NCBI GenBank assembly: GCA_947492185.1
Contig: CANLMR010000003.1
Coordinates: 124,001-188,000 of the forward strand
Source of the DNA: an uncultured Tenacibaculum sp.
GTDB taxonomy: Bacteria; Bacteroidota; Bacteroidia; Flavobacteriales; Flavobacteriaceae
DNA length: 64,000 bases
Reading direction: 5' to 3'
Under the pieces are notes generated by a model. The model was not told the DNA's origin and did no database searches. It was given only the letters and a program-made list of their open reading frames with translations. Of the stretch, positions 4,699 through 27,704 are shown one piece after another; the stretch's first letter is position 1; each line of letters opens with the position of its first letter. A program made the position numbers and the translations under genes.

Positions 4699-7086
4699 AT
4701 GACAATACGAAACTTCCATAGCAGTTCAGATTTAGAATTACCTTTACATATAAATATTAGTTTTAAAAAGATATATGATCTTTTTAAAAAATACACTGAT
4801 AATCAATACAAAGAACATCCGTATCATGTTTCTGCGATTAAAATGGTAGAAGAAATTGATAAAATTCCTGAGTTAATTGAAGGGTTTTCGGATTTTTCTT
4901 TATTGGAAAAACACGAAGAAATAATCGATCTTGTTTTAGATCCATTGTTTCCAGAAATCTTAACTCAAAACGAAATTAAAGCAGCTACTGTTCCTTTCTC
5001 TTTTACTTGTTTTAAATTCACGGAACGTTTCGAAAGTATTCTAGATAATGCAGGAGAAGATTACCTTTTTGAGGTCCGTAATTTTGAACCGGATGCCATG
5101 TATATTTATGCATGTACGTTAATTCTTGGAACGATACATGGACGTAATGTTGATTTGAAACGCCCTTTCTATTTTGATATTCCAGATGTGAATACTGGTT
5201 TTACAAGACATTATAGAGTAGCCTTCAATGGAGATTTTATGGATATTACTCCAACTGAAAATGCTCCTGAAATTACTGAAGATGATATCAAGTTATTATT
5301 AGATAATTTTGATAATATCGATATATGGAGAGAAAAATTCCCTCCAAACTCATACATTTTTAGAGGGTTTGGTATTATGAACCTTTTTGATGTAACTACA
5401 GATGAAACTATTAATTCTATACAGAATAACTTAATCGGTAGAGAAGATGAATCAATGACAGAAAAAATCAGAAATAACCTGAGAGATTTCTTTGGGATTG
5501 GTGATTTAAAAGTTGGTTATTCTGTTTTTGATATTAGTAATTTAGACGAAGGACATGTAAAAGTAAAAAGGTCTGAAAGTATATTATTAAATAATGAACA
5601 AGACATTACTTGCGATAAATATTTTTGTAATCATTTAATCAATAAAATTTTCGTAGAAAATGAGAGTGTTGTCATTTCAGATTTAAATAATTATAAAAAA
5701 TCATCTGGAGGTAATAAATTCTCTCAAAACCTAGAGAGTAAGGATATAAAAAGCATTATTCTTATTCCCATTAAAACAGCTACAAATCAAGACTTGTTGT
5801 TGCTTGAAATGGCTTCTCCTAGAGCTTATGAGTTAAATTCTGTAAACAAGCAAAAGCTAAAAGACATAATACCAATGTTTACGGCTGCTGCTGAACGTAA
5901 CTCAGAAGAGTATTTGAATATTTTAGAAGCTACTATCCAAGAATTTTATACTTCTATTCATCCATCTGTTAAATGGAGGTTTTATGAAGCTGCTGAAAAT
6001 TATCAAAATGCTATTTTAGATAAAGATGAAGATGCTAAAATTGAGAAGATTGCTTTTCATGATGTATATCCACTTTTTGGTCAATCAGATATTAAAGGAT
6101 CTTCTATTGCAAGAAATACAGCAATTAAACAAGATTTAACAAAACAATTAAATGCAGCAATTCATGTATTAAGAGAAGCTTGTAAGAAAGAAACTTTACC
6201 TATTTACGATGAACTGATGTATCGTGTAGAAGACTATTTAGTAGAAGTAAACAAAGGAATGAAAGCTGGTGATGAAATTGCTATTCTTGACTTTTTAAAA
6301 CGTGATATCTATCCAGTTTTTAATCATATTAAAGAAATAAATGAAGAGCTTACTCAAATAGTAAATGAGTATTTAAGTCTTCTAGATGAAAACCTACAAG
6401 TGGTTTATGAAAAAAGGAAAGATTATGAAAATAGTGTAACTAAACTTAACGATAAGCTTGCAAAGTTTATAGATAAGAAACAAGAAGAAGCTCAGAAAAT
6501 ATTTCCTCACTATTTTGAACGCTATAAAACAGATGGTGTGGAATATAACATGTATATAGGGCAATCAATTACTAAGCAGAATAAGTATGATTCTTTATAC
6601 TTATACAACTTACGTTTATGGCAATTACAAACCACTTACGAGATGGAGAACGTTGCTTATAAATTAAGAGATAAACTTGACCATGATTTACGTGTTGCTT
6701 CATTAATATTAGTGCATAGTAATCCACTTTCAATAGAATTTAGAATGGATGAAAAGCAATTTGATGTTGATGGTGCTTATAACATTCGTTACGAGATTAT
6801 AAAGAAAAGAATTGACAAAGCACATATTAAAGGAACTACAGAAAGATTAACTGTTCCTGGAAAAATAGCAATTGTATATTCTCAAGATAAAGATGCTGAT
6901 GAGTATTTAAAATACATTAAATTCTTACAATCTAAAAATCAATTAGGAAAAATTGAGTTATTAGAATTAGAGGATTTACAGGGCGTTTCTGGATTAAAAG
7001 CAATTCGAGTAGAAGTGATTTACGAAACTAAAGAAGATGAAAAATCTTCTATTTCTATTGATGAATTAATCAAGGATATGAAGTAA
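4699..7086 (+). CDS. GAF domain-containing protein
   Basis: A 795-residue cytoplasmic protein with no signal peptide or membrane segment. An N-terminal helical region (about 1-240) precedes a GAF-like domain (about 255-400), recognised from the alternating strand/helix pattern and the segments SVVISDL and SIILIPIKT. The remaining about 390 residues are mainly helical, with likely coiled coil around 560-610 (IVNEYLSLLDENLQVVYEKR), and end in an alpha/beta segment. It matches the general form of long GAF proteins conserved in Flavobacteriia. No histidine kinase, GGDEF or HTH domain is present, so it is not a standard signalling enzyme. It converges on the HD-PycTM gene, with only 18 nt between their ends. 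Confidence 0.65.
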   Translation: MTIRNFHSSSDLELPLHINISFKKIYDLFKKYTDNQYKEHPYHVSAIKMVEEIDKIPELIEGFSDFSLLEKHEEIIDLVLDPLFPEILTQNEIKAATVPFSFTCFKFTERFESILDNAGEDYLFEVRNFEPDAMYIYACTLILGTIHGRNVDLKRPFYFDIPDVNTGFTRHYRVAFNGDFMDITPTENAPEITEDDIKLLLDNFDNIDIWREKFPPNSYIFRGFGIMNLFDVTTDETINSIQNNLIGREDESMTEKIRNNLRDFFGIGDLKVGYSVFDISNLDEGHVKVKRSESILLNNEQDITCDKYFCNHLINKIFVENESVVISDLNNYKKSSGGNKFSQNLESKDIKSIILIPIKTATNQDLLLLEMASPRAYELNSVNKQKLKDIIPMFTAAAERNSEEYLNILEATIQEFYTSIHPSVKWRFYEAAENYQNAILDKDEDAKIEKIAFHDVYPLFGQSDIKGSSIARNTAIKQDLTKQLNAAIHVLREACKKETLPIYDELMYRVEDYLVEVNKGMKAGDEIAILDFLKRDIYPVFNHIKEINEELTQIVNEYLSLLDENLQVVYEKRKDYENSVTKLNDKLAKFIDKKQEEAQKIFPHYFERYKTDGVEYNMYIGQSITKQNKYDSLYLYNLRLWQLQTTYEMENVAYKLRDKLDHDLRVASLILVHSNPLSIEFRMDEKQFDVDGAYNIRYEIIKKRIDKAHIKGTTERLTVPGKIAIVYSQDKDADEYLKYIKFLQSKNQLGKIELLELEDLQGVSGLKAIRVEVIYETKEDEKSSISIDELIKDMK

Positions 7087-7104: not shown

Positions 7105-8334
7105 TTAAAATAAACTCGCTATAGCAGTTGCTGCTGAATTCCCACTTTGTTTGTAAAACGCAATTGCAAAAGCAATTACACTTACAATAATTCCGATCAT
7201 AAAAACAGTATACGTAGTGCGTAATAAACTGTACTTTCTGTTTAATACTAAACCAAGGAAGTATAAATCTTTAGTTAAAGATCCATATAAATAGTCTCTA
7301 TCCTTCATCATTTCACTCATTCCCCATTCGAACTCTTGTAAACTCATTTTATGAAAATTCCCAAAGAAAATTAGATTCACTTTTTTATTTGCAATATCTT
7401 CTTTCGAGAACTTTCCTTGAGTTACATTTGGTCTGGTTGCTAATATTGAAAGCACAATAGAAACTACCGTAAAAAAAATAAATATTATACTAGGAATAAT
7501 TAAATAACTATTCGACGGATTATCTAACTTAGGAATTAAAGTAGATAATGCCATAGAAATAATAATTGCATTCACCGATAATAAAATATTGGCTTTCGTA
7601 TCGGCAATATCACTAAGTGTTATATGGTTTCGCAAAGCCACTCTAAACATGGTTTCAATTCCACGTTCTGGTAGTTCTACTTTCTCTTTTTTAAACTTAA
7701 GCTCTTCTTTCTTTTGAGATAGTTTTTTATTTTCTTGTTTAATTTTTTTCTCAGTTTTAATTAACTGAGCTAAATTCTTCGATTTTTGTTTTTCCCATTT
7801 TTTAACGGCTACATCAGTATAAAATCGATGCTCATTGGTTAAGAAATCAATATTTTTATTAATCCAATCTGTTTCCTTAATCTTTTCATCAGTCAATAAT
7901 TCCATTTCTTTTTGAAGTAATTGAGAAAACTCATTGTAATTTTTACTACCTAAATGAGAACAATCCGCATCCTTTAATAATTTCTCCAATTTAGAACTCG
8001 GTGTAACATCCATTTTAGTAGCTAAAATTATCTGATTCACCTCATCTACAAAGCCTGCCTCTACTCCTTCATTTTTCAAAAACTCAGATGCAATTTTCAC
8101 ACTTTCATCTTCATGTCCGTTCGAATTCACCGTAAATCCAGTATCATGAAACCAAGCAGCAATAAGTAAGCGTTCTTTTTCCGACTCTTCTAATTTTGCT
8201 CCCTCCGCCAACTCAGCAGCTTTTTCAACAACACGTAAAGTATGAGATAAACTATGATAAACTAATTTTTTATCTAGTTTTTCATTCAACTTATCCATTA
8301 CAAAACTTTCTGTTTTTTCTAGAAGAGTGCTCAT
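7105..8334 (-). CDS. HD-domain protein with Pycsar-effector-like (PycTM) membrane domain
   Basis: A 409-residue protein. The N-terminal HD phosphohydrolase domain (about 1-200) shows the metal-binding pattern H31, H63-D64 and D124 (motifs HSLSHTLRV, WFHDTGF, KDADCSH). A charged helical linker follows (about 180-220, rich in K and E). The C-terminal part (about 225-405) carries a conserved NHITLSDIADTKANILLSVN segment leading into two transmembrane helices, then a third near residue 375-395. That segment is characteristic of DUF5706, now called PycTM, the membrane effector domain of Pycsar anti-phage systems. No cyclase gene is adjacent, so a defence role is unproven. HD-PycTM fusions occur widely in Bacteroidota and may be housekeeping proteins. 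Divergent from msrB. Confidence 0.75.
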   Translation of the reverse strand: MSTLLEKTESFVMDKLNEKLDKKLVYHSLSHTLRVVEKAAELAEGAKLEESEKERLLIAAWFHDTGFTVNSNGHEDESVKIASEFLKNEGVEAGFVDEVNQIILATKMDVTPSSKLEKLLKDADCSHLGSKNYNEFSQLLQKEMELLTDEKIKETDWINKNIDFLTNEHRFYTDVAVKKWEKQKSKNLAQLIKTEKKIKQENKKLSQKKEELKFKKEKVELPERGIETMFRVALRNHITLSDIADTKANILLSVNAIIISMALSTLIPKLDNPSNSYLIIPSIIFIFFTVVSIVLSILATRPNVTQGKFSKEDIANKKVNLIFFGNFHKMSLQEFEWGMSEMMKDRDYLYGSLTKDLYFLGLVLNRKYSLLRTTYTVFMIGIIVSVIAFAIAFYKQSGNSAATAIASLF

Positions 8335-8420: not shown

Positions 8421-8870
8421 ATGCTTACTTGGAAAAATATTATAGATTTTACAGTTAATGGAAATCCATTACCTGACAAAAGAATTGAAAAAACAGATGA
8501 AGAATGGAAAGCGAAGCTAACTCCAGAACAATTCAGGATTACTAGACTCAAAGGAACCGAAAGACCTTTTAGCGGAGAACACTGTTCTTCTTTTAGCTCT
8601 GGTAAATACAGTTGTATTTGTTGTGGAACACCTTTATTTGATTCTACAATTAAATTTGACTCAAGTTCAGGGTGGCCAAGTTTTACGCAACCCACAAAAG
8701 AGAATGCAGTAAAATATCACAAAGATACTACTCATGGAATGATTAGAGTAGAAATTGTTTGTAACACTTGTGATTCTCATTTAGGACATGTATTTCCAGA
8801 TGGCCCAGAACCAAGCGGATTAAGATACTGTGTTAACTCATTATCAATTGAATTAGAAGATGAAAACTAA
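8421..8870 (+). CDS. msrB: Peptide-methionine (R)-S-oxide reductase
   Basis: A 149-residue MsrB, which reduces methionine-R-sulfoxide in proteins. Visible are the two zinc CxxC pairs (CICCGTPLF and CNTCDSHLGH), the SGWPSFTQP substrate segment and the RYCVNS motif holding the catalytic Cys. There is no signal peptide, so it acts in the cytoplasm. Length is normal for a single-domain MsrB. Its stop codon overlaps the start of msrA by 11 nt, so the two stereo-specific reductases are made from one mRNA, probably with coupled translation. Confidence 0.95.
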   Translation: MLTWKNIIDFTVNGNPLPDKRIEKTDEEWKAKLTPEQFRITRLKGTERPFSGEHCSSFSSGKYSCICCGTPLFDSTIKFDSSSGWPSFTQPTKENAVKYHKDTTHGMIRVEIVCNTCDSHLGHVFPDGPEPSGLRYCVNSLSIELEDEN

Positions 8871-9390
8871 AATAGCTACAGTTGGCGGTGGATGTTTTTG
8901 GTGTACCGAAGCTGTATTTGATCAAATTAAAGGAGTAGAGAAAGTAGTTTCAGGATATGCAGGAGGAAACGTTCCTGGTTATCCAACATACAGAGAAGTT
9001 TGTTCTGGATTAACGGGACATGCAGAAGTTGTTCAAATATCGTATGATCCTGAGGTAATTTCATATCAGGAGATTTTGATTATTTTCATGACCACTCATG
9101 ATCCGACTACATTAAACAGACAAGGAGCTGATGTTGGTACGCAATACAGATCTGTAATTTATTATACTAACGGAGAAGAAAAATCGGTAATTGAAGAAGT
9201 TATAAGGCAAGTTCAACCGTATTACGATAACCCAATAGTAACAGAAGTTAGTGAATTACCAACGTTTTATCCTGCAGAAGAGGATCATCAAAACTATTAT
9301 GCAAATAATAAAGAGCAAGGATATTGCAACTTTGTAATTACCCCAAAAATTTCGAAGTTAAGAAAGTTGTATGCTGATAAATTGAAATAG
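8860..9390 (+). CDS. msrA: Peptide-methionine (S)-S-oxide reductase
   Basis: A 176-residue MsrA, which repairs methionine-S-sulfoxide. The hallmark GGCFWCTE motif with the nucleophilic Cys lies at about residues 11-18, followed by VSGYAGG, GHAEVVQ and AEEDHQNYY, all family signatures. It is cytoplasmic, with no leader. The start at 8860 lies inside the end of msrB, giving an 11 nt overlap. Together the pair handles both methionine sulfoxide epimers, consistent with an oxidative-stress repair role next to the OsmC-fusion gene downstream. Confidence 0.95.
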   Translation: MKTKIATVGGGCFWCTEAVFDQIKGVEKVVSGYAGGNVPGYPTYREVCSGLTGHAEVVQISYDPEVISYQEILIIFMTTHDPTTLNRQGADVGTQYRSVIYYTNGEEKSVIEEVIRQVQPYYDNPIVTEVSELPTFYPAEEDHQNYYANNKEQGYCNFVITPKISKLRKLYADKLK

Positions 9391-15324: not shown

Positions 15325-16887
15325 ATGGATTTTAAAATTTCAAATACTTTTACCAAAAAGCTTCCAGCTGATATAACTCAGGAAAATACAAGAAGACAAG
15401 TATATAATGCTTGTTATTCTTTTGTTACTCCAAAGCAAACTTTGAATCCTAAACTGATTCATTTTTCAGATGGTTTTATACATGAAGTTGGAATTACAAA
15501 AGAGGATACTCAGAGTGACGAATTCCTTAAGATTTTTTCTGGAAATAAAGTATTGGAAAATACGCATCCTTATGCCATGTGTTATGGTGGACATCAATTT
15601 GGTAATTGGGCAGGACAACTAGGAGATGGCAGAGCCATTAATCTATTTGAAATTAATCATAATAATAAACATTGGACTTTTCAATTGAAAGGTGCAGGTG
15701 AAACTCCATATTCAAGAACTGCGGATGGATTAGCCGTTTTACGTTCTTCAATAAGAGAACATTTATGCAGTGAAGCCATGCATTATTTAGGTGTTCCTAC
15801 TACTAGATCTTTAACGCTAAGCTTAACCGGAGATCAAGTGATGAGAGATATTATGTACAATGGAAACGCTGCTTATGAAAAAGGTGCTGTAGTTTGTAGA
15901 GTGGCTCCTAGTTTTATTCGTTTTGGGAATTTTGAAATTTTCGCAGCTAGACAAGATAGTGAAACACTTAAAAAGCTTGCTGATTACACTATCGAGCATT
16001 TTTATTCGAACATTACTTCAACAGGAAAACAAAAGTATTTAGATTTTCTAACGGAAGTTCGAAATAGAACTATCGAAATGATTGTTCATTGGCAACGCGT
16101 TGGATTTGTTCATGGTGTAATGAATACGGATAATTTATCTATTCTTGGGCTAACGATTGACTTCGGACCTTATGGTTGGTTAGAAGGATTTGATTATGAA
16201 TGGACTCCGAATACCACTGACGCACAAAACAAAAGATATCGTTTTGGAAATCAGCCATACATTGCCATGTGGAATTTATATAAACTTGCCAATGCTTTAT
16301 ATCCATTAATTGAAGAAGTAGATCCGTTACAGTCAATATTGAATGAATATGAAACTTTGTACTTGAAACAGTATAAGACTATGATGAAGCAAAAATTAGG
16401 TTTGGATACAGAGTCAGATTATGCTTCTCTTATATCTGGAATTGAAAAAACATTGCAATTAATCGAAACAGATTATACTATATTTTTTAGAAAACTATCA
16501 TTGGTAACTAAAAATGATACTCCAACAAGTGCAATACCGAAAATATCGGATGCTTTTTATAACCTTAAAGAACTTCAAAAAGACATCAAAGAACAATGGC
16601 TTTCTTGGTTTGCACAGTATATCGAAACTATTCAGAAATTAGATTCAACAGATGAAGAAAGAACAGTACAAATGAATACCGTAAATCCGAAATATGTTTT
16701 ACGAAATTATATGGCGCAATTAGCTATTGATGATGCAGATAAAGGAAACTATGCTTTAATTGACGAATTATATCAACTACTTAAAAATCCATATGATGAA
16801 CAACCAACTTATGAGAAGTGGTTTGCCAAACGTCCTGAATGGGCGCGTCATAAAGTTGGTTGCTCAATGTTATCTTGTAGTTCCTAA
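15325..16887 (+). CDS. selO: Protein adenylyltransferase SelO (YdiU family)
   Basis: A 520-residue pseudokinase-fold enzyme that transfers AMP from ATP to protein Ser, Thr or Tyr. Signature segments are YGGHQFGNWAGQLGDGRAINLFE (first ~20 residues shown by GGHQFGNWAGQLGDGRA), LKGAGETPYSRTADG and VHGVMNTDNLSILG with the catalytic DN. The ATG at 15325 is preferred over a TTG six codons upstream. The protein ends in SCSS: the antepenultimate Cys is where selenocysteine sits in eukaryotic SelO. In E. coli SelO is linked to redox stress and glutathionylation. It converges on the endonuclease gene with a 5 nt gap. Confidence 0.93.
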   Translation: MDFKISNTFTKKLPADITQENTRRQVYNACYSFVTPKQTLNPKLIHFSDGFIHEVGITKEDTQSDEFLKIFSGNKVLENTHPYAMCYGGHQFGNWAGQLGDGRAINLFEINHNNKHWTFQLKGAGETPYSRTADGLAVLRSSIREHLCSEAMHYLGVPTTRSLTLSLTGDQVMRDIMYNGNAAYEKGAVVCRVAPSFIRFGNFEIFAARQDSETLKKLADYTIEHFYSNITSTGKQKYLDFLTEVRNRTIEMIVHWQRVGFVHGVMNTDNLSILGLTIDFGPYGWLEGFDYEWTPNTTDAQNKRYRFGNQPYIAMWNLYKLANALYPLIEEVDPLQSILNEYETLYLKQYKTMMKQKLGLDTESDYASLISGIEKTLQLIETDYTIFFRKLSLVTKNDTPTSAIPKISDAFYNLKELQKDIKEQWLSWFAQYIETIQKLDSTDEERTVQMNTVNPKYVLRNYMAQLAIDDADKGNYALIDELYQLLKNPYDEQPTYEKWFAKRPEWARHKVGCSMLSCSS

Positions 16888-16892
16888 GCTTT

Positions 16893-19800
16893 TTACTTAA
16901 GCACTATTTTTTTTATGATTTTACTTTTACTAGTATCTAGTTGTAAAATGTATAATCCTGTCGCTAACTTTTTCATTGGAACACTGTTATTCCCATTTCC
17001 GATAAAATTAGAAGCAACTATTTTCTGTCCTGAAATATTGAATAAAGTTACATCAGTATTCTCATAAATTCCTTTTACCTGAATCGTATTATTTTCATCT
17101 ACAAAAACCGTAACCGATTGTAAAGTCGTATCATCTACATTTAAAACAGATTGACTTGTGTGCAAGTAAAATCGTCCAGTACCTGAAACATTCTCAGTTA
17201 ATTGTTTTGTATAATTAGAAGATCCATCTAACAATATAAAAACTCCTTCAACTCGGTCTTCCAAGTACATTTCATATCCTGTTGGTAAATTCGAAGATTC
17301 GGCAGTAATTGTTATCTCCATATTTTCTGAAGCATTAACACCTAATGGAATAACTTCACTAAATGTATCATTTGATAATGATTGAATGGCAAGCTTTTGT
17401 CCTTCACTATTTTCAACCAACTCTGAATACATAATCAGATCGGTATTTGCTCCACCAAAAATAGTTGAGTCCCAACCATTATCCCATCCTGAAGTCGCTC
17501 CTTGAACGTATAAAATATCTGTCTCTTTATCTGAATTACCATCAACACTTAACTTCAACTTTATACTTGAATGATTTTGGTTAATTCCTTTTGCAAAAGT
17601 GTCTGAAGACTGATGACTTTGTAAAGATTCAGGAAAACTAAAGTTTCCTCCAGTTGTATTTGATCTCACAAAGAAACCTTGACCTGGAGCAATATAATAG
17701 ATTCCATTTAAAATTGCCGTAGCTTGATTTACCAAAGAATATTGGCTAGTTGCTTGATTCCAAAACCAAATAGTTTCTTCCTCTAGAATACCTGTATTTA
17801 AACTTAATAAGTTATTTGAACCTGTAGGAGAAGAATGATTTGCAGTTACATAAGACGGGAAAGGATTTCCGATCAAATTAAAGCCATTTCCTCCTGCTCC
17901 ACCATCAGCAATTGCTATTGTAACATCATTTAAAGGCATCAACCCACTAAATGAAACATCGTCTGCTGCAGTTAATTTTATCGAACGACCTTCACCACTA
18001 GCCAGAGCTCCAGTTGTTGAAGCATTAGCATATGTCCAACCTGGAGTTGAATTATCATAATCTCCAATTCCAATATTTCCAGATGACCCCGATGCTAAAC
18101 TGTGATTGCTAATAATATCTTGAATTGTTTCATTTGCAACCGTTGAAGAAACCAAATACCAATTTGTGGTTCCTAATGATCTATTATAAGTTAAATTAAA
18201 ACTTGTTGAATTTTGTGCGATTAAAGAAGCTCCTGAATTGACAGTTACAGTTCCTGAAGTTGTAAGATTTGTTCCCACAGTTAATGATGTTCCTGGATCA
18301 AGAGTTAAATTTGCCACTGAAATACTTCCACTAGCACTAACGTCTTTACCTGATCCAATCATAACATTTGTATTACTTGGAACCGTTGCAAAACTCCAGT
18401 TCGATGTTGTATTCCAATCGCTATCTGTATTTCCAGTAAAAATATTTGTAGTTCCAGCAATATGAAATCCAATATTCGTAAATGTATCTGAAGCGAAAGA
18501 ATCCCATTCAGCAACAGAATATGTTGTTGATGGTCCACTAACCGTTGATTTTCTAACTAAAGTCGTATTAATTGCAAAGTTCCCTGAACCTCCATCAAAA
18601 GTTCCGATAATATCAATAAGTACATCATTTTTAAACAATCCTACTGGATCATTTCCATTAAATGATAATTCGGAAGCATTTGAGGTTTCATTTGCTTTAC
18701 TTGTAATATCTGTAGAAGCACCAGAATTTGCAACTACGTAAACATTTCCATTAGATAAACTACCTGTGAGAGATAATCCACCTGACCAAGTTCCAGCTCC
18801 ATTAGTTTGTCTTTTTATAGAATACACATTTAAATCTACTGTACTACCTGTATAATTCGCAATTTCTACCGCTTTATTTACAGAAGAACCTTCAATATAT
18901 TCCGAGAAAAATAATTCTGAAGCAAATCCAGTTTGAACATCAGTTGTTACCATAATTTGAGTACTTGAAGCAGAAGTATTTCCTACTGCATCGTATGCTT
19001 GAACAGTAACATTGTATGTTGTAGAACCTGTTAAACCCGTTGCATTATAACTTGTAGTATTTGATGTTCCCACTTGAACATTATCAAGTAGAATATTATA
19101 TCCTGTTACCGCTGTGTTATCTGTAGAAGCTGTCCAAGAAACAGTAAACGAAGTTGAAGCAATATTTGAAGAAACTAGTCCTGTTGGAACAGTTGGTGCT
19201 TCAGTATCACCTCCTCCGCCTCCACCAAAAAGATCTTCAGCTTGTGGTCCGCCCCAAATTTCAGTTGCAAATGCAGGATTATCTATAAAAGGATTTCTAT
19301 TTCCTTGCGCATATGTTCCTGCACTATCATGGTATGTATTTCTTTGCTTTTCAAAATCAGAAACAGGGTCTTCCGCATTCCAATCTAAAAATAAATCAAT
19401 CATATCATCAGGAGTTGAAGCACTACTTCCCACTCCTAATAAAGTTGGCAAACATTGGCTTCCGTATCGTAAATACATGTACATAGCAATTCTGGCTACA
19501 TCACCTTTCCATTCATCTCCAGGATACCAGCCTCCGGTAACCGAACCCGCATTTCCAGTTCCATCCGTAAATAATTGATTACTTCTTGTAGAATTTGTTT
19601 GTACATCACAAGGTCTTAAATTATGAGCATCAGAATATGGTGGGCCACTTGTTCCAGACGCATCTAAATCTGGATTTGCTAAAGAGTTTGGAAAAACATG
19701 TTCCCTATTCCATTGCCCATTACTACCACCATTATTATTAATACCTCTTGTTCGAGAAGTTATTCCTGATGCACTATAACCATATATCAATAGTACTTCA

Positions 19801-20015
19801 GAATTATTTGAAGGATTAACATCTGTTATTTTTGAAGCATCCCAAATATTTGAATAAGACAAACTGTTCGTATGTGTATTAATAATCTTTGTTGCCAATT
19901 CATTTTTTAAACTGACTCCAGTTAAGTTCAAATTAACATCATTATAATAAGTAGGAATTTGCGCAAAAATTGTTATAGAAAATAACAGCACAGGAAAAAG
20001 TATGAATTTCTTCAT
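16893..20015 (-). CDS. T9SS-exported endonuclease I family protein
   Basis: A 1040-residue secreted nuclease started at the ATG at 20015, which gives the signal peptide MKKFILFPVLLFSITIFAQ. Parts in order: an endonuclease I domain (about 20-250) with NREHVFPNSL and DAHNLRP metal/active-site segments; a glycine stretch; a fibronectin type III domain (about 270-360, APTVPTGL to TSASSTQ); a lamin-tail-like domain (about 365-480, ELFFSEYIEGSS); a large beta-rich region; and a C-terminal type A T9SS sorting domain (about 970-1040, ending KIIKKIVLK). It probably degrades extracellular DNA for nutrients or phosphate. The frame extends 25 codons upstream but without a leader. A TACTTTTG -7 element (20043-20050, minus strand) supports the chosen start. 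Confidence 0.92.
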   Translation of the reverse strand: MKKFILFPVLLFSITIFAQIPTYYNDVNLNLTGVSLKNELATKIINTHTNSLSYSNIWDASKITDVNPSNNSEVLLIYGYSASGITSRTRGINNNGGSNGQWNREHVFPNSLANPDLDASGTSGPPYSDAHNLRPCDVQTNSTRSNQLFTDGTGNAGSVTGGWYPGDEWKGDVARIAMYMYLRYGSQCLPTLLGVGSSASTPDDMIDLFLDWNAEDPVSDFEKQRNTYHDSAGTYAQGNRNPFIDNPAFATEIWGGPQAEDLFGGGGGGDTEAPTVPTGLVSSNIASTSFTVSWTASTDNTAVTGYNILLDNVQVGTSNTTSYNATGLTGSTTYNVTVQAYDAVGNTSASSTQIMVTTDVQTGFASELFFSEYIEGSSVNKAVEIANYTGSTVDLNVYSIKRQTNGAGTWSGGLSLTGSLSNGNVYVVANSGASTDITSKANETSNASELSFNGNDPVGLFKNDVLIDIIGTFDGGSGNFAINTTLVRKSTVSGPSTTYSVAEWDSFASDTFTNIGFHIAGTTNIFTGNTDSDWNTTSNWSFATVPSNTNVMIGSGKDVSASGSISVANLTLDPGTSLTVGTNLTTSGTVTVNSGASLIAQNSTSFNLTYNRSLGTTNWYLVSSTVANETIQDIISNHSLASGSSGNIGIGDYDNSTPGWTYANASTTGALASGEGRSIKLTAADDVSFSGLMPLNDVTIAIADGGAGGNGFNLIGNPFPSYVTANHSSPTGSNNLLSLNTGILEEETIWFWNQATSQYSLVNQATAILNGIYYIAPGQGFFVRSNTTGGNFSFPESLQSHQSSDTFAKGINQNHSSIKLKLSVDGNSDKETDILYVQGATSGWDNGWDSTIFGGANTDLIMYSELVENSEGQKLAIQSLSNDTFSEVIPLGVNASENMEITITAESSNLPTGYEMYLEDRVEGVFILLDGSSNYTKQLTENVSGTGRFYLHTSQSVLNVDDTTLQSVTVFVDENNTIQVKGIYENTDVTLFNISGQKIVASNFIGNGNNSVPMKKLATGLYILQLDTSKSKIIKKIVLK

Positions 20016-20042
20016 ATGATATTGGGGATTTAATTTACTATA

Positions 20043-20050
20043 CAAAAGTA
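20043..20050 (-). promoter_or_regulatory. Promoter -7 element of the endonuclease gene
   Basis: On the minus strand this reads TACTTTTG, matching TAnnTTTG. It ends 27 nt before the ATG at 20015 and supports that start over the upstream frame extension. No clear -33 TTTG was found. Confidence 0.4.
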
Positions 20051-20168
20051 GTATTTTAATTTTAAAACCCCATAAAAAACTAACTATCAAGTATTAAGCT
20101 TTTTTTTATTATAATTCACTTACTGTTCTATAGTATATTTCAAAATTTAATGCTCTTAACTAAGTTTG

Positions 20169-20197: not shown

Positions 20198-23100
20198 ATG
20201 AAAAAAATCTATGTTGTTATATTAGCTCTTTTATGCTTTTATGGATGTGCTACTTATAAAGCACAATATGCTTCTAAAAATTATTCGCCAAAAACCACTA
20301 AAAAAAAACCTATACATTCTTTCTATTTAATTGGAGATGCCGGTAATGCTAAAATGAATGAAAATGTAGTTTCTTTACAATATTTTCAAAAAGAGATAGC
20401 CAGAGCAACAAAAAATAGCACAGCACTTTTTTTAGGTGACAATGTATATCCTTATGGTATATACCCTAAAGAACATAAAGACTATCCTCTAGTCAAACAT
20501 CGTCTTAAAATCCAAACTGATGCAGTTAAAAACAATTCTGGAAAAACAATTTTTATTCCTGGAAATCATGACTGGTATAATGGGGTTGAAGGTTTAAAAA
20601 GACAAGAGAAGTTAGTAGAAAAAGCTTTAGGTAAAAATTCGTTCTTACCTGAAAATGGATGTGGTTTAGATAAAGTAGATATTAACGACAATCTTACCTT
20701 AATTACTATCGATAGTGAGTGGTATATAATGAATTGGGATAAAGAACCAAAAATTAATGACAATTGCGATATTAAAACTCGAGAACGTTTTATAGAAGAA
20801 CTATGGAGTTTATTCAAAAAAAATCGCTACAAAAATGTGGTAGTAGCTATGCACCATCCGATGTATTCGAATGGACCACATGGCGGTAGTTTTTCTGTAA
20901 AAGATCATATGAGCCCTATTCCTGTTTTAGGGACTTTGAAAAATATGTTACGATCGCATGCAGGAATTCAAACGGATAACTTTCATCAGCAATATCAAGA
21001 TTTTGTTCGCCAGATTGAAACTATAGCTAACGATTTTAAAAATAATATTGTTTTTGTAAGCGGGCATGAGCACAACTTACAATACATTGAAAACAATGGT
21101 TTCAAACAAATAGTTAGTGGTGCCGGTTCTAAACAATCTCCTGCTTTGGTTGGTTACGGAGCGGAATTTACGTATGGTAATTATGGTTATTCTAAATTAA
21201 ATTTTTATAAAGATGGTTCTGCAATTGTAGAATATTATGCTGCAAATAATGAAGATGAAAACAAACTTCTTTTCAGCAAGCAAATTATAAACCCTGTCGA
21301 AAAAGAAACAAACTTCGATTTTTCTGAATTCGAACAACATAAGAAAGAGGTTACTACTTCTTTATACTCAAAAGAAGATGTTGATGTTACTGGATTTCAT
21401 AAATTTATGTGGGGTGATTTAAACCGTGAGAAATATGGTAAAGAAATTACAGTTCCTGTTTTAGAGCTAGATAAAATGTTTGGCGGTTTAAAACCTATTC
21501 GAAGAGGAGGAGGAAATCAAACCAACTCATTACGTTTAGAAAATCCTAACGGAAAACAATACGTACTTCGTTCTATGTATAAAGACGGAAGTAGAATTAT
21601 GGGTGGTGTTTTAAAAGGAACTTTTTTAGTAGACGTTGTTCAAGACATTTTCACCATGTCGCATCCATATGCTGCTTTTGTTATTCCAGATATGGCAGAA
21701 GCTGTTGAAATTTACCATACTAATCCTAAACTATATTACATGCCTAAACAACCAAGTTTAGGAATGTATAATGACGTTTTTGGAGGTGGAATGTATTTAT
21801 TAGAAGAACGACCAGCAGGAAATAGAGATGATGTTGCGTCGTTTGGAAATTCAAAAAAAATCATTAGTACTTATGATGTGTTAGAGAAGATTCGTAAAAA
21901 CGGAAAACATACAATTGATCAAAATTTCACTGTTCGTTCACGACTGTTTGACATGGTAATTGGAGATTGGGATAGACATGAAGATCAATGGCGTTTTGCT
22001 TCATTTAAAACCGATAATGGAAAAACCTATTACAGACCAATTCCTAGAGATAGAGATCAACCTTTTTCTAAATTTGATGGTGTAATAATTCCACTATTAA
22101 AGCAAAACACTCCGCTTATTAAAAATATGCAGTCTATGGATTATGATATCAAAGACATGAAGTGGTATAATAATTATCCTCGTTTCTTTGATGCAGAATT
22201 CTTAAATCAACTTACATTAAAAGATTGGTTAAAAGAAGCAGAACATATTCAAAATAAACTTACCAACGAAGTAATTGAAAATGCTATAAAACAATTTCCA
22301 AAAAGTGTTTATGATATAGACGGAGATGAATTAATTGCTAAAATTAAATCAAGAAGAGATAAACTAAAAGTATTTGCAACAAAATATTACAAAAAACAAG
22401 CTAAAAAGATCCAAGTTGTCGGTACAGATAAGGACGATAAGTTCATAATTAAAAGGTTGAATGACAATGAAACCAGTATTGAAATCTTTAGAAAAGACAA
22501 CAAAATATTTAGTAGAATTTTCTTAACCGATGAAACAGATGAAGTTCAATTATATGGTTTAAATGGTGATGATGAGTTTTACATTTCTGGCGATGTTGAT
22601 GATAGTATTTTAATTCGATTAATTGGTGGCCATAATCATGATACTTATAACGATTCTTCTTCAGTTTCTGGATGGAGTAAAAAAACCAAAGTTTACGATT
22701 ATCTTTCTAAGAAAAATACAGTTAAAGGTGGAAAAGAATTAGATGATTTAAGAGAAGATAATTACTTCAAAAACACGTATAATCATAGAGATATTGAAAA
22801 TAACACAACACTTATTTTCCCAAGTTTAGGATTCAACCCAGATGACGGATTCTTCTTTGGTGTGAATGCTACACACACTCGTTACGGATTTAAGAAAAGA
22901 CCATTTGATAATCGTCATAACATTACTGCTAATTTCTATTCTGCAACTAGCGGATTTGACATCAATTATACTGGAGAGTTTGCTGAATTTATTGGGGATT
23001 GGATGTTAGAATTAAAAGCACGAGCTACAAGTAGTAACTATGCCTTTAACTTCTTTGGGTTTGGAAATAAAACTGAATTTCCAGATTCTAGAGATTTAGA

Positions 23101-23845
23101 TTTCTATCGTGTAAAAAGAGAAGAATTTATAATTGCACCATCTTTAGTTCGACAGTTTAATTGGGGAAGTACATTAAAATTTACAGGAACATTTGAGGCT
23201 ATTAAAGTTGAGAATACTCCCGGAAGAAACATCACAAACTTTACAAATGGAGTTACCAATATTTTTGATAGAAATTACTTTGTTGGTGGTGAAGTAAACT
23301 TTAATCATAATAGAACTGACAACAATAGTTTTCCTACGAAAGGGATGAATTTCGATTTAATAATGGGAGCTAAAATGAACGCAGAAAACACTGATCGTAA
23401 TTTTGGATACTTAAGAACTTCATTAGCCATTTACCAAAACTTAGTTTCCAACAGAAGTCTTGTTTTCGCTTCAGAAATTGGAAGTCATTTAAACTTTAGA
23501 AATCGATTTGAAATTTATCATGCAGCTAGCTTAGGTGGAAATAGAACTTTACGAGGGTACAACAACCAACGCTTTACTGGATCTGAAAGTTTTTATCATT
23601 CTAATGATCTGAGATTACGTTTAGGAAGTATTAAAGCCTTTATTCCTATGCGACTTGGAATTACAGGTGGTTTCGATTATGGAAAAGTATGGAGTCCTTT
23701 TGCTCCTACAAATTCAGAATCTTGGAACTCAAGTTATGGAGGTTCTTTTTGGTTAAGTGGATTAGATATGTTTACCATGAATTTAGCTATGTTTAATGGT
23801 AATGATGGTGGTAGATTTACTTTTAGTTTAGGTTTTAATTTTTAA
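20198..23845 (+). CDS. Metallophosphoesterase lipoprotein with Omp85-like beta-barrel
   Basis: A 1215-residue lipoprotein (hydrophobic leader, FYGC with Cys17). Residues about 40-350 are a calcineurin-like phosphoesterase with all metal motifs: GDAGN (D47), GDNVYP (D81), GNHDW (N123, H124, D125), AMHHPMYSNG and SGHEHN. Residues about 400-720 hold a second module with GDWDRHEDQW (589-598) and PIPRDRDQPF (614-623), reminiscent of CotH/Fam20C-type secreted kinases. The C-terminal about 330 residues form a surface-antigen/Omp85-like barrel (RTLRGYNNQRFTG, ending FTFSLGFNF). It should lie in the outer membrane, but whether the enzymatic modules face the periplasm or the outside is not shown. It is followed after 2 nt by the DUF423 gene. 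The ATG at 20198 is chosen for the lipoprotein leader and promoter position. Confidence 0.85.
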   Translation: MKKIYVVILALLCFYGCATYKAQYASKNYSPKTTKKKPIHSFYLIGDAGNAKMNENVVSLQYFQKEIARATKNSTALFLGDNVYPYGIYPKEHKDYPLVKHRLKIQTDAVKNNSGKTIFIPGNHDWYNGVEGLKRQEKLVEKALGKNSFLPENGCGLDKVDINDNLTLITIDSEWYIMNWDKEPKINDNCDIKTRERFIEELWSLFKKNRYKNVVVAMHHPMYSNGPHGGSFSVKDHMSPIPVLGTLKNMLRSHAGIQTDNFHQQYQDFVRQIETIANDFKNNIVFVSGHEHNLQYIENNGFKQIVSGAGSKQSPALVGYGAEFTYGNYGYSKLNFYKDGSAIVEYYAANNEDENKLLFSKQIINPVEKETNFDFSEFEQHKKEVTTSLYSKEDVDVTGFHKFMWGDLNREKYGKEITVPVLELDKMFGGLKPIRRGGGNQTNSLRLENPNGKQYVLRSMYKDGSRIMGGVLKGTFLVDVVQDIFTMSHPYAAFVIPDMAEAVEIYHTNPKLYYMPKQPSLGMYNDVFGGGMYLLEERPAGNRDDVASFGNSKKIISTYDVLEKIRKNGKHTIDQNFTVRSRLFDMVIGDWDRHEDQWRFASFKTDNGKTYYRPIPRDRDQPFSKFDGVIIPLLKQNTPLIKNMQSMDYDIKDMKWYNNYPRFFDAEFLNQLTLKDWLKEAEHIQNKLTNEVIENAIKQFPKSVYDIDGDELIAKIKSRRDKLKVFATKYYKKQAKKIQVVGTDKDDKFIIKRLNDNETSIEIFRKDNKIFSRIFLTDETDEVQLYGLNGDDEFYISGDVDDSILIRLIGGHNHDTYNDSSSVSGWSKKTKVYDYLSKKNTVKGGKELDDLREDNYFKNTYNHRDIENNTTLIFPSLGFNPDDGFFFGVNATHTRYGFKKRPFDNRHNITANFYSATSGFDINYTGEFAEFIGDWMLELKARATSSNYAFNFFGFGNKTEFPDSRDLDFYRVKREEFIIAPSLVRQFNWGSTLKFTGTFEAIKVENTPGRNITNFTNGVTNIFDRNYFVGGEVNFNHNRTDNNSFPTKGMNFDLIMGAKMNAENTDRNFGYLRTSLAIYQNLVSNRSLVFASEIGSHLNFRNRFEIYHAASLGGNRTLRGYNNQRFTGSESFYHSNDLRLRLGSIKAFIPMRLGITGGFDYGKVWSPFAPTNSESWNSSYGGSFWLSGLDMFTMNLAMFNGNDGGRFTFSLGFNF

Positions 23846-24915: not shown

Positions 24916-25764
24916 TTATAAAGGAATTTTCATCTCATATAAATTTCCTCCTTGAGTATGAGATCTTTCATCAGAAATATAAAGCGTATTATTACCCATA
25001 AAATCAACGGCTTCTTTTTGAGAAGAAAAGCCTAAATCAATTCTGGTTAATTTACCATCAAAGAAATTATCACTTTTATAATCACTAAACAACAATACTT
25101 CATGTGAAGTTAACAAGGCTACTTTTGAATTGTCTTCTGAAATCGCCGCTCCTGTAATCCAACAATCCATATTAGAGCAATTTTCAAATTCACTTATTAA
25201 TTTCGCTTGATATTTACCGGGCTTAGCAGAAATTTTATATAAACTCGTTTTACCATAATTTTGTTTTACTCTACTCTTTGTAAAAACATATAAATATCCA
25301 CTTATATAGAGTATACTCTCCGCATCAAAATAACGATATTTCTTATTAGGTGGGAATTTGTGTTGTTCTGGATATTCGAATTGTATCTTTTCAACTTCAA
25401 CTGATTTTTGAGTTAAAAGGTCCTCTTCCTTTATTTTAAGAATCACTAAATCTTTACGTTTGCTTTCGTTATTTCCAAAATCTGCTACATAAATATTTCC
25501 TTGGTCATCTGAAGTAATGTCTTCCCAATCTTTGTTTTTAGCATTTATGTGAACATTTCGAATTATCTCTCCTTTTGTATTGACCAAATATAATTCACTC
25601 TTATTTCCTCCGTCATTATGCATCCAAAATGTAGAGTCACTTACTTTTTCAAGCCCTGAAACTTCTTTCAGTTTTTTTGGAAGTTTAGCAACATAAGTTA
25701 CCTGACTGTAATTTGTGCATCCATAAAAGACAAATAAGAGGAATATAAACTGTACTATTTTCAT
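24916..25764 (-). CDS. Lipoprotein with beta-propeller-like fold
   Basis: A 282-residue lipoprotein when started at the ATG at 25764 (MKIVQFIFLLFVFYGC, with FYGC as lipobox); the frame upstream contains the terminator hairpin of the TPM operon and is not a plausible start. The mature part has repeated beta segments (LKEVSGLEKV, WMHNDGGNKSELYLVN, NIYVADFGNN, LYISDERSH), suggesting a propeller similar to SdiA-regulated or esterase-like phytase folds. No catalytic residues can be named. The protein is probably held on the periplasmic membrane surface. Confidence 0.7.
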   Translation of the reverse strand: MKIVQFIFLLFVFYGCTNYSQVTYVAKLPKKLKEVSGLEKVSDSTFWMHNDGGNKSELYLVNTKGEIIRNVHINAKNKDWEDITSDDQGNIYVADFGNNESKRKDLVILKIKEEDLLTQKSVEVEKIQFEYPEQHKFPPNKKYRYFDAESILYISGYLYVFTKSRVKQNYGKTSLYKISAKPGKYQAKLISEFENCSNMDCWITGAAISEDNSKVALLTSHEVLLFSDYKSDNFFDGKLTRIDLGFSSQKEAVDFMGNNTLYISDERSHTQGGNLYEMKIPL

Positions 25765-25832: not shown

Positions 25833-26657
25833 CTACCAACTTCCACCAGCTCCACCTCCACTAAAGCCTCCTCCACCGAAGCCACCACCAAAACCTCCAC
25901 CGCCGAAACCTCCAGAACTACCTCCAAAGCCTCCGCTTCCAAAACCGCCACTACGTCGGTAACCACCTCTTCCTGAGTTACTTAAGATTATAGTTTCTAG
26001 AATGTCTCGTGAGTCAGAATCCGAATAATATCTTCTACCTCCTTTTCCTCTTCCTCCTCTAGAAATAAGTATAAAAAAGATGATTAAAATGATAATAAAA
26101 ATGATAAAAGCAAAATCTCCTCCTTCATTCTTTGATTTTTTACGAGTCCCTTTATACTCCCCTTGGAGAACCTTAAAAATGGCATCTGTTCCTTTATCAA
26201 GTCCGCCATAATAATTTCCTTTTTTAAATTCAGGAATTATAACATTTCGAATAAGTTGGCCATTAATTCCAGCTGTTAACTTATGCTCCACTCCATATCC
26301 GGGAGATATCCATATTTTTCTGTCATCTCTAGCTAATAAAATAAAAACTCCATTATCTTCTTCAGCTTGTCCAATACCCCATTCATGAGCCCATCTTGGA
26401 GTTAAAATCCCAATACTTTCATTATTTGTCGAACTAATTATTCCTACCACTATCTGAGTAGATGTGGTATCAGAATATCTTATTAATTTATTCTCAAGAT
26501 TCTTTTTTTGAGAAGGAGAAAGCAGATTTATATAATCATAAACACTTGTCTGTTTACTTTCTACTTTGGGTTTTTCAGGAATTTGAAATTGAGAAAAAAC
26601 TGATTGTGCTCCTATAAAAAGAAACGTTAGTAAAAGTATAAATTTTGTCTTTTTCAT
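25833..26657 (-). CDS. TPM domain membrane protein with Gly-rich tail
   Basis: A 274-residue protein: signal peptide (to about residue 22), a TPM domain (about 35-165, with RYSDTTSTQIVVGIISS and ARDDRKIWISPGYGVE), a transmembrane helix (about 183-200), and a C-terminal tail of about 70 residues made of GGFGGGGF-type repeats ending GGSW. This is the YgcG architecture. Related TPM proteins are linked to envelope maintenance and, in plants, photosystem II repair. It directly follows the second TPM gene (no gap), in the order lemA-TPM-TPM, which is conserved in many bacteria. Confidence 0.88.
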   Translation of the reverse strand: MKKTKFILLLTFLFIGAQSVFSQFQIPEKPKVESKQTSVYDYINLLSPSQKKNLENKLIRYSDTTSTQIVVGIISSTNNESIGILTPRWAHEWGIGQAEEDNGVFILLARDDRKIWISPGYGVEHKLTAGINGQLIRNVIIPEFKKGNYYGGLDKGTDAIFKVLQGEYKGTRKKSKNEGGDFAFIIFIIILIIFFILISRGGRGKGGRRYYSDSDSRDILETIILSNSGRGGYRRSGGFGSGGFGGSSGGFGGGGFGGGFGGGGFSGGGAGGSW

Positions 26658-27095
26658 TTATCCTTTCGATACTTCATTAGGTAATTCATCTTTATCATCA
26701 GCATTCCAAGGAAAATGTTCTTTTAATTCTTCTCCGGCTTTTAAAACACCTTTAATTATGCCTTGTTTAAACTCTCCTCTCTTAAAAAGGTTTTGCATAG
26801 TGTTTTTCGTTCCTTCCCAAAAATTATCAGGAACTACTTCATTAATTCCTTTATCACCATAAATCACAAATTGATGATCATCTACGGCAATATAAATCAA
26901 CACAGCATTTTGTTGCTTGGTATTATCCATTTTTAGCTTTCCAAATACTTCTAGAGCTCTATCAAAATGAGAGATTTCTGTAGTTCTTTCAATATGAACT
27001 CGTATTTCTCCAGAAGTATTTCGTTCCGCTTTTATAATGGCTTGAACAATTTCTTGTTCTTCATCAAATGATAGAAATTTTTCTACGCTAGACAT
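26658..27095 (-). CDS. TPM domain-containing protein
   Basis: A 145-residue TPM-domain protein without leader or membrane helix. Key segments are IIKAERNTSGEIRVHIE, AVLIYIAVDDHQFVIYGDKGINEVVP and FWEGTKNTMQ. It is the short cytoplasmic-type relative of the following gene. It abuts both neighbours (stop and start separated by 0 nt on each side), so lemA and the two TPM genes are one transcription unit. Confidence 0.88.
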   Translation of the reverse strand: MSSVEKFLSFDEEQEIVQAIIKAERNTSGEIRVHIERTTEISHFDRALEVFGKLKMDNTKQQNAVLIYIAVDDHQFVIYGDKGINEVVPDNFWEGTKNTMQNLFKRGEFKQGIIKGVLKAGEELKEHFPWNADDKDELPNEVSKG

Positions 27096-27704
27096 TTATT
27101 TTTTGTTTCCAAAATCAAAATTAACATCCGGAGCTTTTTCTTTTCCTGGCTCTGCGTCAAAATAAGGTTTATCGTCAAAACCAAACCAACCTGCAAAAAT
27201 ATTATTTGGGAACGTTTTCACATGATTATTATAAGGTTTAATAGCTTCATTAAACCTTGTTCTAGCAGTTAAAATTTGATTTTCTGTACTAGCTAACTCA
27301 TCTTGTAATTTTAAAAAATTCTGATTAGTTTTTAAATCAGGGTATCTCTCTACTGTAACTAATAAACTTTTTAGAGCACCACTTAAACCTCCTTGAACTT
27401 GATTAAATTGTGCTAATTGCTCTGGAGTAATTTTAGAAGGATCTATATTAATTGAAGTAGCTTTAGCTCTGGCATTTATTACAGCTTCTAAAGTACTCTT
27501 TTCAAAATCAGCTGCTCCTTGTACTGTTTTTACTAAATTACCTATTAAATCACCTCTTCTTTGGTAAGCTGTTTGAACATTTCCCCATGATTCGGACACG
27601 TTTTCATTCAGCTTTATCGCTGAATTATAAAATCCTTTTCCTGAACTGTACGCATATAAAACTATAGCTCCAATTACTAATAGAGGTACTAACCATTTTT
27701 TCAT
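27096..27704 (-). CDS. lemA: LemA family protein
   Basis: A 202-residue LemA protein: a short N-terminal membrane helix (MKKWLVPLLVIGAIVLYAYS) then a four-helix bundle with the family motif WGNVQTAYQRRGDLIGNLVKTVQG and VERYPDLKTNQNFLKLQDEL. The family is broad and its role is unclear, though it recurs with TPM/YgcG genes at membrane-linked loci. First gene of the LemA-TPM-TPM operon, starting 16 nt after the MerR gene ends. Confidence 0.93.
   Translation of the reverse strand: MKKWLVPLLVIGAIVLYAYSSGKGFYNSAIKLNENVSESWGNVQTAYQRRGDLIGNLVKTVQGAADFEKSTLEAVINARAKATSINIDPSKITPEQLAQFNQVQGGLSGALKSLLVTVERYPDLKTNQNFLKLQDELASTENQILTARTRFNEAIKPYNNHVKTFPNNIFAGWFGFDDKPYFDAEPGKEKAPDVNFDFGNKK

Follow-up and report, generated by a model that had tools for sequence, protein, structure and literature searches.

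A predicted kinase-like domain in a putative Tenacibaculum lipoprotein with metallophosphoesterase and Omp85-type barrel parts

In the Omp85 superfamily of outer-membrane proteins, Heinz and Lithgow (2014) defined a subfamily named 'Metallo' by the Pfam family PF00149, termed a metalloprotease domain, and considered for it either periplasmic quality-control proteolysis or export to the surface and a virulence role there (PMC4104836). PF00149 ahead of an Omp85 barrel, with no POTRA, is the mark of this subfamily, and the same arrangement was found in the protein studied here, which is encoded in a window of 64,000 nucleotides (the whole stretch of DNA that was analysed) from an uncultured Tenacibaculum sp. 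For this kinase-barrel protein, as we call it, we established the gene, its domain matches, its conservation, the spread of its family and its association with neighbouring genes. The 'Metallo' members and the kinase-barrel family are probably the same proteins, as judged from the published description. That description, in the part available, names no kinase-like domain (PMC4104836), and a publication on such a domain in Omp85 proteins was not found in the open-licence PMC literature. The architecture is thus known and its central domain unrecognised.

The reading that we prefer, with a probability of about 0.5, is that of a predicted outer-membrane lipoprotein that joins a phosphatase-family domain to a domain of predicted kinase fold and that, acting from the periplasmic side, probably adds phosphate to some component of the envelope. 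The open reading frame (20198-23845, plus strand) runs uninterrupted over 1215 amino acids plus the stop, exactly where a preliminary description, made from the sequence alone, had placed it; if translation began at another in-frame ATG, at 20150, the protein would be longer by 16 residues ahead of the signal peptide. Its own genome holds one copy of the gene, and among the best 80 matches its closest named relatives are from Tenacibaculum, with a best identity of 87-88%.

A predicted kinase fold between two recognised domains

At its cut-off, Pfam covered only the two ends of the protein, with PF00149 over residues 42-235 (E 4.7e-9) and PF03865 over residues 1057-1167 (E 1.1e-7), which bears out the calcineurin-like metal motifs and the Omp85 barrel of the preliminary description. 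NCBIfam gave one additional Omp85 match, below cut-off. The middle region, searched as a separate piece (residues 382-767) and within the whole protein, matched no Pfam or NCBIfam family at cut-off, despite the 5699 proteins that match the kinase-like domain in one search. A Dna2 match at residues 681-761, below the Pfam cut-off (E 0.033 with the whole protein, 0.005 with the piece), was dismissed as a chance match to a helical stretch, as were BamD-like matches to the same stretch and the eS7 and HDAC6 matches of one of the profiles.

In the predicted model, whose residue numbers were converted from the mature protein to the precursor, the middle region takes the two-lobed fold of the PKL superfamily. 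Kinase-fold structures headed the Foldseek matches and were among the rows listed by VIA, the outcome that the preliminary description had hoped for, and neither a propeller nor a carbohydrate-binding fold, named there as speaking against a kinase, appeared in the predicted structure. The Gly-rich loop G437-G439 lies between modelled strands 432-438 and 443-448; R458 sits inside strand 454-459 and K462 immediately past it, both being kept in all 97 full-length proteins compared. One of the two, R458 or K462, probably fills the role of the nucleotide-binding lysine. The motifs GDWDRHEDQW (residues 589-598) and PIPRDRDQPF (614-623) were found where they had been reported. In the model, D592 follows helix 575-588 and precedes strands 598-604 and 610-616, and D618 comes directly past the second of these strands. 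The modelled order of Gly-rich loop, strand 3, catalytic loop and DFG position would therefore be that of kinases. The window protein also holds the motif elements of the PKL superfamily, namely a catalytic Asp, N or Q at D+5 and a metal Asp after the following hairpin. Q597 occupies the position of the catalytic-loop Asn and is replaced by N in 6 of 80 aligned rows, which were picked by similarity to the kinase-like region itself and are hence biased, and in 6 of 43 divergent rows; G439 is replaced by K or R in 23 of the 97 full-length proteins.

We compared a profile of the kinase-like family (158 pieces, 138 after filtering) by hhalign with 28 Bacteroidota CotH rows and 24 HipA rows, leaving out two CotH rows and one HipA row that were empty or short. 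Against CotH the score was 37.3 (E 5.2e-4), whereas 50 column-shuffled targets reached at most 21.4, the reversed target 16.5 and 18 neighbour-gene families at most 22.6. By the same method, CotH and HipA, two accepted kinase-fold families, scored 40.8 with each other, and SelO, a kinase-fold family among the 18, scored 22.1 with the kinase-like family and 29.9 with CotH. The alignment was in register, with GDWDRH on the CotH catalytic segment and PRDRDQ on IPxDxD, and 26 residues separate D592 from D618, as against 23 between the equivalent Asp residues of solved CotH (PDB 5jd9/5jda). These correspond to D228 and D251 of B. subtilis CotH, 23 apart, mutants of which are reported as inactive in the available part of PMC7821199. 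HipA was rejected as the closest family, with a profile match (E 0.29) that is not significant and no better than shuffles, and HipA_C (PF07804) gave no match in the window protein or its own genome. Fam20C (PF06702) gave no match in the window protein and, in 148 Bacteroidota genomes, a single one below cut-off (20.4 bits against 26.8, E 4.8e-4), which lies inside a family member (G130:C1:1189770-1193441) and ends at its DWDRH motif. PF00454 (PI3_PI4_kinase) was found neither in the window protein nor in the 148 genomes, family members included.

The N-terminal metallophosphoesterase (MPE) domain carries the motifs GDAG, GDNVY, GNHDW, MHHP and GHEHN. We take the set GDxG / GDNxY / GNHD / H / GHxH to be of the purple-acid-phosphatase (tartrate-resistant) type and, from known family motifs, D47, D81, Y84, N123, H220, H290 and H292 to be its metal ligands, all seven of which are kept in 86 of the 97 full-length proteins. 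The alignment profile matched structures of tartrate-resistant acid phosphatase (TRAP) at E 1.4e-6, with a best stretch around GHxH only, and GAP50 at E 7.4e-6, again with a best stretch holding GHxH; GAP50 was also among the Foldseek matches. Judged by its motifs, the domain is of phosphoesterase type and not a protease.

Predicted barrel, lipid anchor and location

The barrel model has 16 long strands, and BamA, TamA and Sam50-type structures were among its Foldseek matches; predicted structure and profile matches together place it in the Omp85 superfamily. In the window protein no POTRA was matched by Pfam, and in its place the model has an all-beta linker whose strand order, by DSSP, is not the beta-alpha-alpha-beta-beta of a POTRA. 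The linker carries repeated G-x-D/N-x-D motifs, reminiscent of calcium-binding beta-rolls, and matched no Pfam family at cut-off.

The putative lipid cysteine C17 is kept in 78 of the 80 rows and in 74 of the 97 full-length proteins, in agreement with the lipoprotein first proposed; the other 23 consist of 22 gaps and one K, several of the fetched stretches beginning later. A crude lipobox pattern, which flagged 11 of 37 MPE-less relatives, several within ordinary-looking signal peptides, was not used. The lipoprotein export signal of Bacteroidota is described, in the parts available of two studies, as two acidic residues soon after the Cys (PMC5080379, PMC12578637). At least two acidic residues at +2 to +6 were found in none of the 74 and in one of the 78 sequences with the Cys, the window protein reading ATYKA. 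By the rule used in the available part of PMC12045153, this makes a periplasm-facing protein more likely, and the 'surface' enzyme of the preliminary description did not hold up. A surface position would follow if the protein were a type Vd-like autotransporter, as PlpD is, with its own barrel carrying the MPE and kinase-like parts out to where extracellular ATP is possible. The enzyme domains do stand N-terminal to an Omp85 barrel, and Heinz and Lithgow thought of such export for the MPE-Omp85 subfamily (PMC4104836), but no POTRA was found between enzyme and barrel, the N-terminal Cys is conserved and the export signal is missing. Taken with the modelled all-beta linker, these features speak against a surface enzyme and a PlpD-like exporter, which we consider quite unlikely.

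Conservation of the two sites and weighing of the readings

The 97 full-length MPE-type proteins (the window protein and 96 relatives) were taken by whole-protein match in a phylum search, among the matches listed, so as to have a sample selected by neither domain. Left out were the G320 copy with one in-frame TAG, G239:C62 and G360:C84, whose match stops short of the barrel, and three long rows, two from G072 and one from G387, in which the match begins after the MPE (L194, L195 and L196). L194 shows the DRH motif; L195 and L196, like L204, have no DRH motif and an N-terminal PGDKDW at the GNHDW position, and L196 had no Pfam match at E 0.1. A set of 119 short matches, the new ones of the best 120 from one search, was also compared; since several are named partial, this set includes fragments of longer proteins.

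D592, R593, H594, D618 and D620 are identical in 80/80 rows and kept in 95, 96, 96, 96 and 97 of the 97, respectively. The conservation of D592, R593 and D618, whose lack the preliminary description had named as a refutation, therefore stands among full-length relatives, and for D592 it fails in many short ones, where it is kept in 68 of the 119 (33 of the 37 MPE-less relatives). D618 is kept in 35 of the 37 and in all 119, and K462, R593, D618 and D620 are present in every short match, including those without D592. The window protein belongs to the branch with D592.

All seven MPE ligands together with K462, D592 and D618 are intact in 86 of the 97. In nine the MPE has lost at least two ligands and the kinase site is intact, in two both sites are damaged and in none is the kinase site alone damaged (Fisher p 0.012, with proteins related by descent). 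Moreover, 32 of the 37 MPE-less relatives retain all three key residues. These results indicate that what stays constant in the family is the kinase-like domain. Five of the compared loci (L221, L222, L224, L225 and L226) hold second copies whose MPE site has lost 3-6 ligands and whose kinase site is intact; each of these genomes has another, full-length member with a better match.

The module was found in 143 of 395 Bacteroidota genomes, and in 140 of 371 of good quality (E <= 1e-10), and is thus not unusual in the sense of rare, as had been suggested. Its best matches, where named, are called metallophosphoesterase, hemolysin secretion/activation protein, BamA/TamA family or hypothetical protein. 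Proteins that match only from about residue 385 onward are common, mostly of 850-960 aa, and of six such MPE-less proteins tested, five had PF01103 and none PF00149. As judged from these alignments, the MPE is an accessory part, present in the branch of the window protein and absent or decayed in others. At L198 and L199 two adjoining genes encode the barrel (about 400 aa) and, in open frames of 530 and 579 aa, the kinase-like part, and domain-only proteins with D592 were found on long contigs (P0168, 390 aa, on 877 kb; P0237, 530 aa, Pontibacter burrus, on 474 kb). P0192 and P0228 have Ser at the D592 position, and P0126 is one of the short matches with Gly or Ser there. The best 120 matches include two partial sequences that carry the name Gemmatimonad and one with the name Ignavibacteria. 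Directly after an intact MPE-less member, from L175:7521 onwards (+), lies a tandem second copy of 863 aa in which K462 and D592 are replaced by R and E, likely a pseudokinase paralogue.

In the mechanism that we propose, the modelled barrel and a lipid on the conserved Cys would tether both ends of the protein to the outer membrane. The Gly-rich loop and R458 or K462 would bind a nucleotide, D592 would be the catalytic base, D618 and D620 would hold the metal, and phosphate would pass to a protein, lipid or glycan. The purple-acid-phosphatase-like domain may then remove the same or a related phosphate, so that writer and eraser would be fused.

Several points weigh against this reading. We infer enzymatic activity, nucleotide binding and substrate from sequence and model, and likewise infer that the MPE and the kinase-like domain would share one substrate; on topology, the missing export signal is only negative evidence. 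Foldseek TM-scores are low, at best 0.40 on query length, which means that the relation to known kinase folds is distant. Single-sequence Pfam searches gave no kinase family at cut-off: CotH (PF08757) had no match in the window protein and touched 2 of 69 members (best E 0.017), no stronger than chance-level matches, the unrelated EnY2 matching 9 of the 69 at least as strongly. Low TM-scores and the missing Pfam kinase match are also what a middle domain of unrelated fold, resembling kinases by chance, would give, although we hold this to be very improbable.

A further such point is that D592 is replaced by Gly (30) or Ser (21) in 51 of the 119 short matches. This large branch without the presumed catalytic base would be in keeping with a nucleotide that is bound and not used for transfer, or with a second, different chemistry, and is possibly a pseudokinase. 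Inactive kinase-fold domains are common, and the kinase-like domain as a whole could be a pseudokinase that serves the MPE and barrel as a structural or ligand-binding platform and leaves the MPE as sole enzyme. The loss of D592 in those 51 sequences, in 4 of the 37 MPE-less and in 2 of the 97 full-length proteins fits this explanation. The nine lone decays of the MPE against none of the kinase site are the opposite of what it leads one to expect, and the three key residues persist where the MPE is missing, so that we regard it as unlikely.

Finally, free ATP is, to our knowledge, not expected in the periplasm, which makes the phosphate donor a puzzle. For this reason it was considered that the domain transfers something other than a gamma-phosphate, such as AMP as in SelO or glutamate as in SidJ, or draws on another donor in place of ATP. 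Other reactions are established for the kinase fold, for example in SelO and SidJ, and some of the proteins concerned lack the usual catalytic Asp; the other four residues kept in all short matches, even with Gly or Ser for D592, fit a D592-independent reaction. The window also has the gene for SelO itself, 3.3 kb upstream, a point tempered by SelO being cytoplasmic as far as known. No result points to a specific alternative reaction, however, and D592 is kept in nearly all full-length proteins, that of the window included; we see a different transfer or donor as a somewhat doubtful alternative to phosphorylation from the periplasmic side.

Neighbouring genes and relation to known systems

Neighbours were counted at 79 named loci, dominated by Flavobacteriaceae, at 40 phylum loci and in the window, all related by descent. 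A six-frame PF06977 search missed the window copy, though that protein alone scores above cut-off, and the counts therefore rest on our own profiles. Relatives of the SdiA-regulated-like protein occur in 52 of the 79 MPE-type loci, 35 of them within 1.5 kb, of which 34 are convergent. A related protein adjoins on the same strand, at a distance of -4 to 250 bp, in 18 of the 40 phylum loci, next to an MPE-less gene in 16 of these; the SdiA-like profiles of the two groups match each other at E 2.6e-15. The HD-PycTM gene lies 11.9 kb upstream of the kinase-barrel gene, in the opposite direction. Of 36 genomes that carry the kinase-like module, 30 have PycTM-type proteins, against 3 of 63 genomes that lack it (Fisher p 4e-16, descent not corrected; 4 of 63 if G029, scored negative with HD and part of PycTM and no module, is counted). 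Ten of the 30 match by the PycTM half only, some with an internal stop reported; 23 of the 30 proteins lie within 13 kb of the module, 19 within 3.2 kb. At the 40 phylum loci both neighbours were present in 14, one in 8 and neither in 18. The two likely share a process with the kinase-barrel gene.

Table 1. Features of the kinase-barrel gene and its two recurrent neighbours (window positions).
Feature	Position	Strand	Basis
Whole gene: 1215-aa lipoprotein (putative), MPE + kinase-like domain + beta linker + Omp85 barrel	20198..23845	+	ORF, Pfam, model
Signal peptide, putative lipid cysteine C17, then CATYKA without acidic export signal	20198..20248	+	Sequence, alignments
Purple-acid-phosphatase-like MPE domain, residues ~40-375	20315..21322	+	PF00149, TRAP structure matches, conservation
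Kinase-like domain as modelled, residues 385-775; kinase-fold matches ~418-737	21350..22522	+	Model, Foldseek, VIA
Gly-rich loop G437-G439 between two N-lobe strands	21506..21514	+	Model, alignments
R458 + K462, putative nucleotide role	21569..21583	+	97/97 each
Putative catalytic-loop motif GDWDRHEDQW, D592, Q/N597 at D+5	21962..21991	+	Model, alignments
Putative metal-binding motif D618-R619-D620, DFG position	22049..22057	+	Model, alignments
All-beta linker (predicted), residues ~736-865	22403..22792	+	DSSP of model
Omp85-type outer-membrane barrel (predicted), 16 strands, residues 870-1215, RTLRGYNN loop	22805..23842	+	Pfam, model, Foldseek, profile
SdiA-regulated-like (PF06977) recurrent neighbour, single-copy	24919..25764	-	Pfam, own profiles
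HD-domain + PycTM recurrent neighbour, single-copy	7105..8334	-	Pfam, profile searches

Other genes were seen in the surroundings. The SelO adenylyltransferase gene (15325-16884, +), encoding another kinase-fold enzyme, is present in 30 compared loci including the window, and MsrB (8421-8867) and MsrA (8860-9387) lie upstream in the window and in related loci. Divergent from the kinase-barrel gene is a gene (16896-20045, -) for Endonuclease I with fn3, a lamin tail and a type IX sorting tail. A 795-aa protein (4699-7083, +) had no Pfam match at E 0.001; a cluster of proteins of about 791 aa stands upstream of the family gene at 48 loci. Beside the PF06977 gene, two TPM-domain proteins and a LemA protein stand in a row (25836-27704, -).

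More broadly, and tentatively, Bacteroidota may hold a phosphorylation system on the inner face of the outer membrane, in which an unrecognised family of kinases, fused to Omp85 barrels or encoded beside them, would write phosphate on parts of the envelope, the purple-acid-phosphatase domain would erase it, and the SdiA-like and HD-PycTM proteins would complete a trans-envelope module, the Gly/Ser branch representing a second chemistry or sensing. If the domain is active, the outer membrane would bear a kinase in a compartment believed to lack ATP, and the question of how bacteria phosphorylate outside the cytoplasm, and from which donor, could be put directly to one defined protein with known key residues and two candidate partners. 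A 'metallophosphoesterase' of Riemerella that has phosphatase activity was dropped as a functional precedent, being listed as a type IX effector in the available part of PMC10202324.

Among kinase families, the CotH spore-coat kinases (PF08757) align with the kinase-like domain at 13-17% identity, and the kinase-barrel protein differs from them in being, as predicted, anchored by a barrel and a lipid. The HipA/CtkA kinases are not barrel-anchored and their profile match is not significant, the secretory-pathway kinase Fam20C is approached below cut-off by one relative only, and phosphatidylinositol 4-kinase type II is eukaryotic, its family PF00454 giving nothing in the Bacteroidota set. Among Omp85 proteins, the 'Lipo' subfamily (PMC4104836) and TamL, a lipidated TamA-like Omp85 of Bacteroidota described in the available part of PMC12045153, are likewise lipoproteins with an Omp85 barrel. 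BamA, TamA, TamL and PlpD, however, carry N-terminal POTRA domains, which the kinase-barrel protein does not, and where 'Lipo' proteins have three POTRA it has the MPE and kinase-like domains. The 'Metallo' subfamily is described as conserved at the genus level in the available part of PMC4104836, whereas the kinase-like module reaches across more than a third of the Bacteroidota genomes searched. Our reading would recast the MPE-Omp85 subfamily as centred on a kinase, in contrast with the 2014 proposals of quality-control proteolysis or surface virulence.

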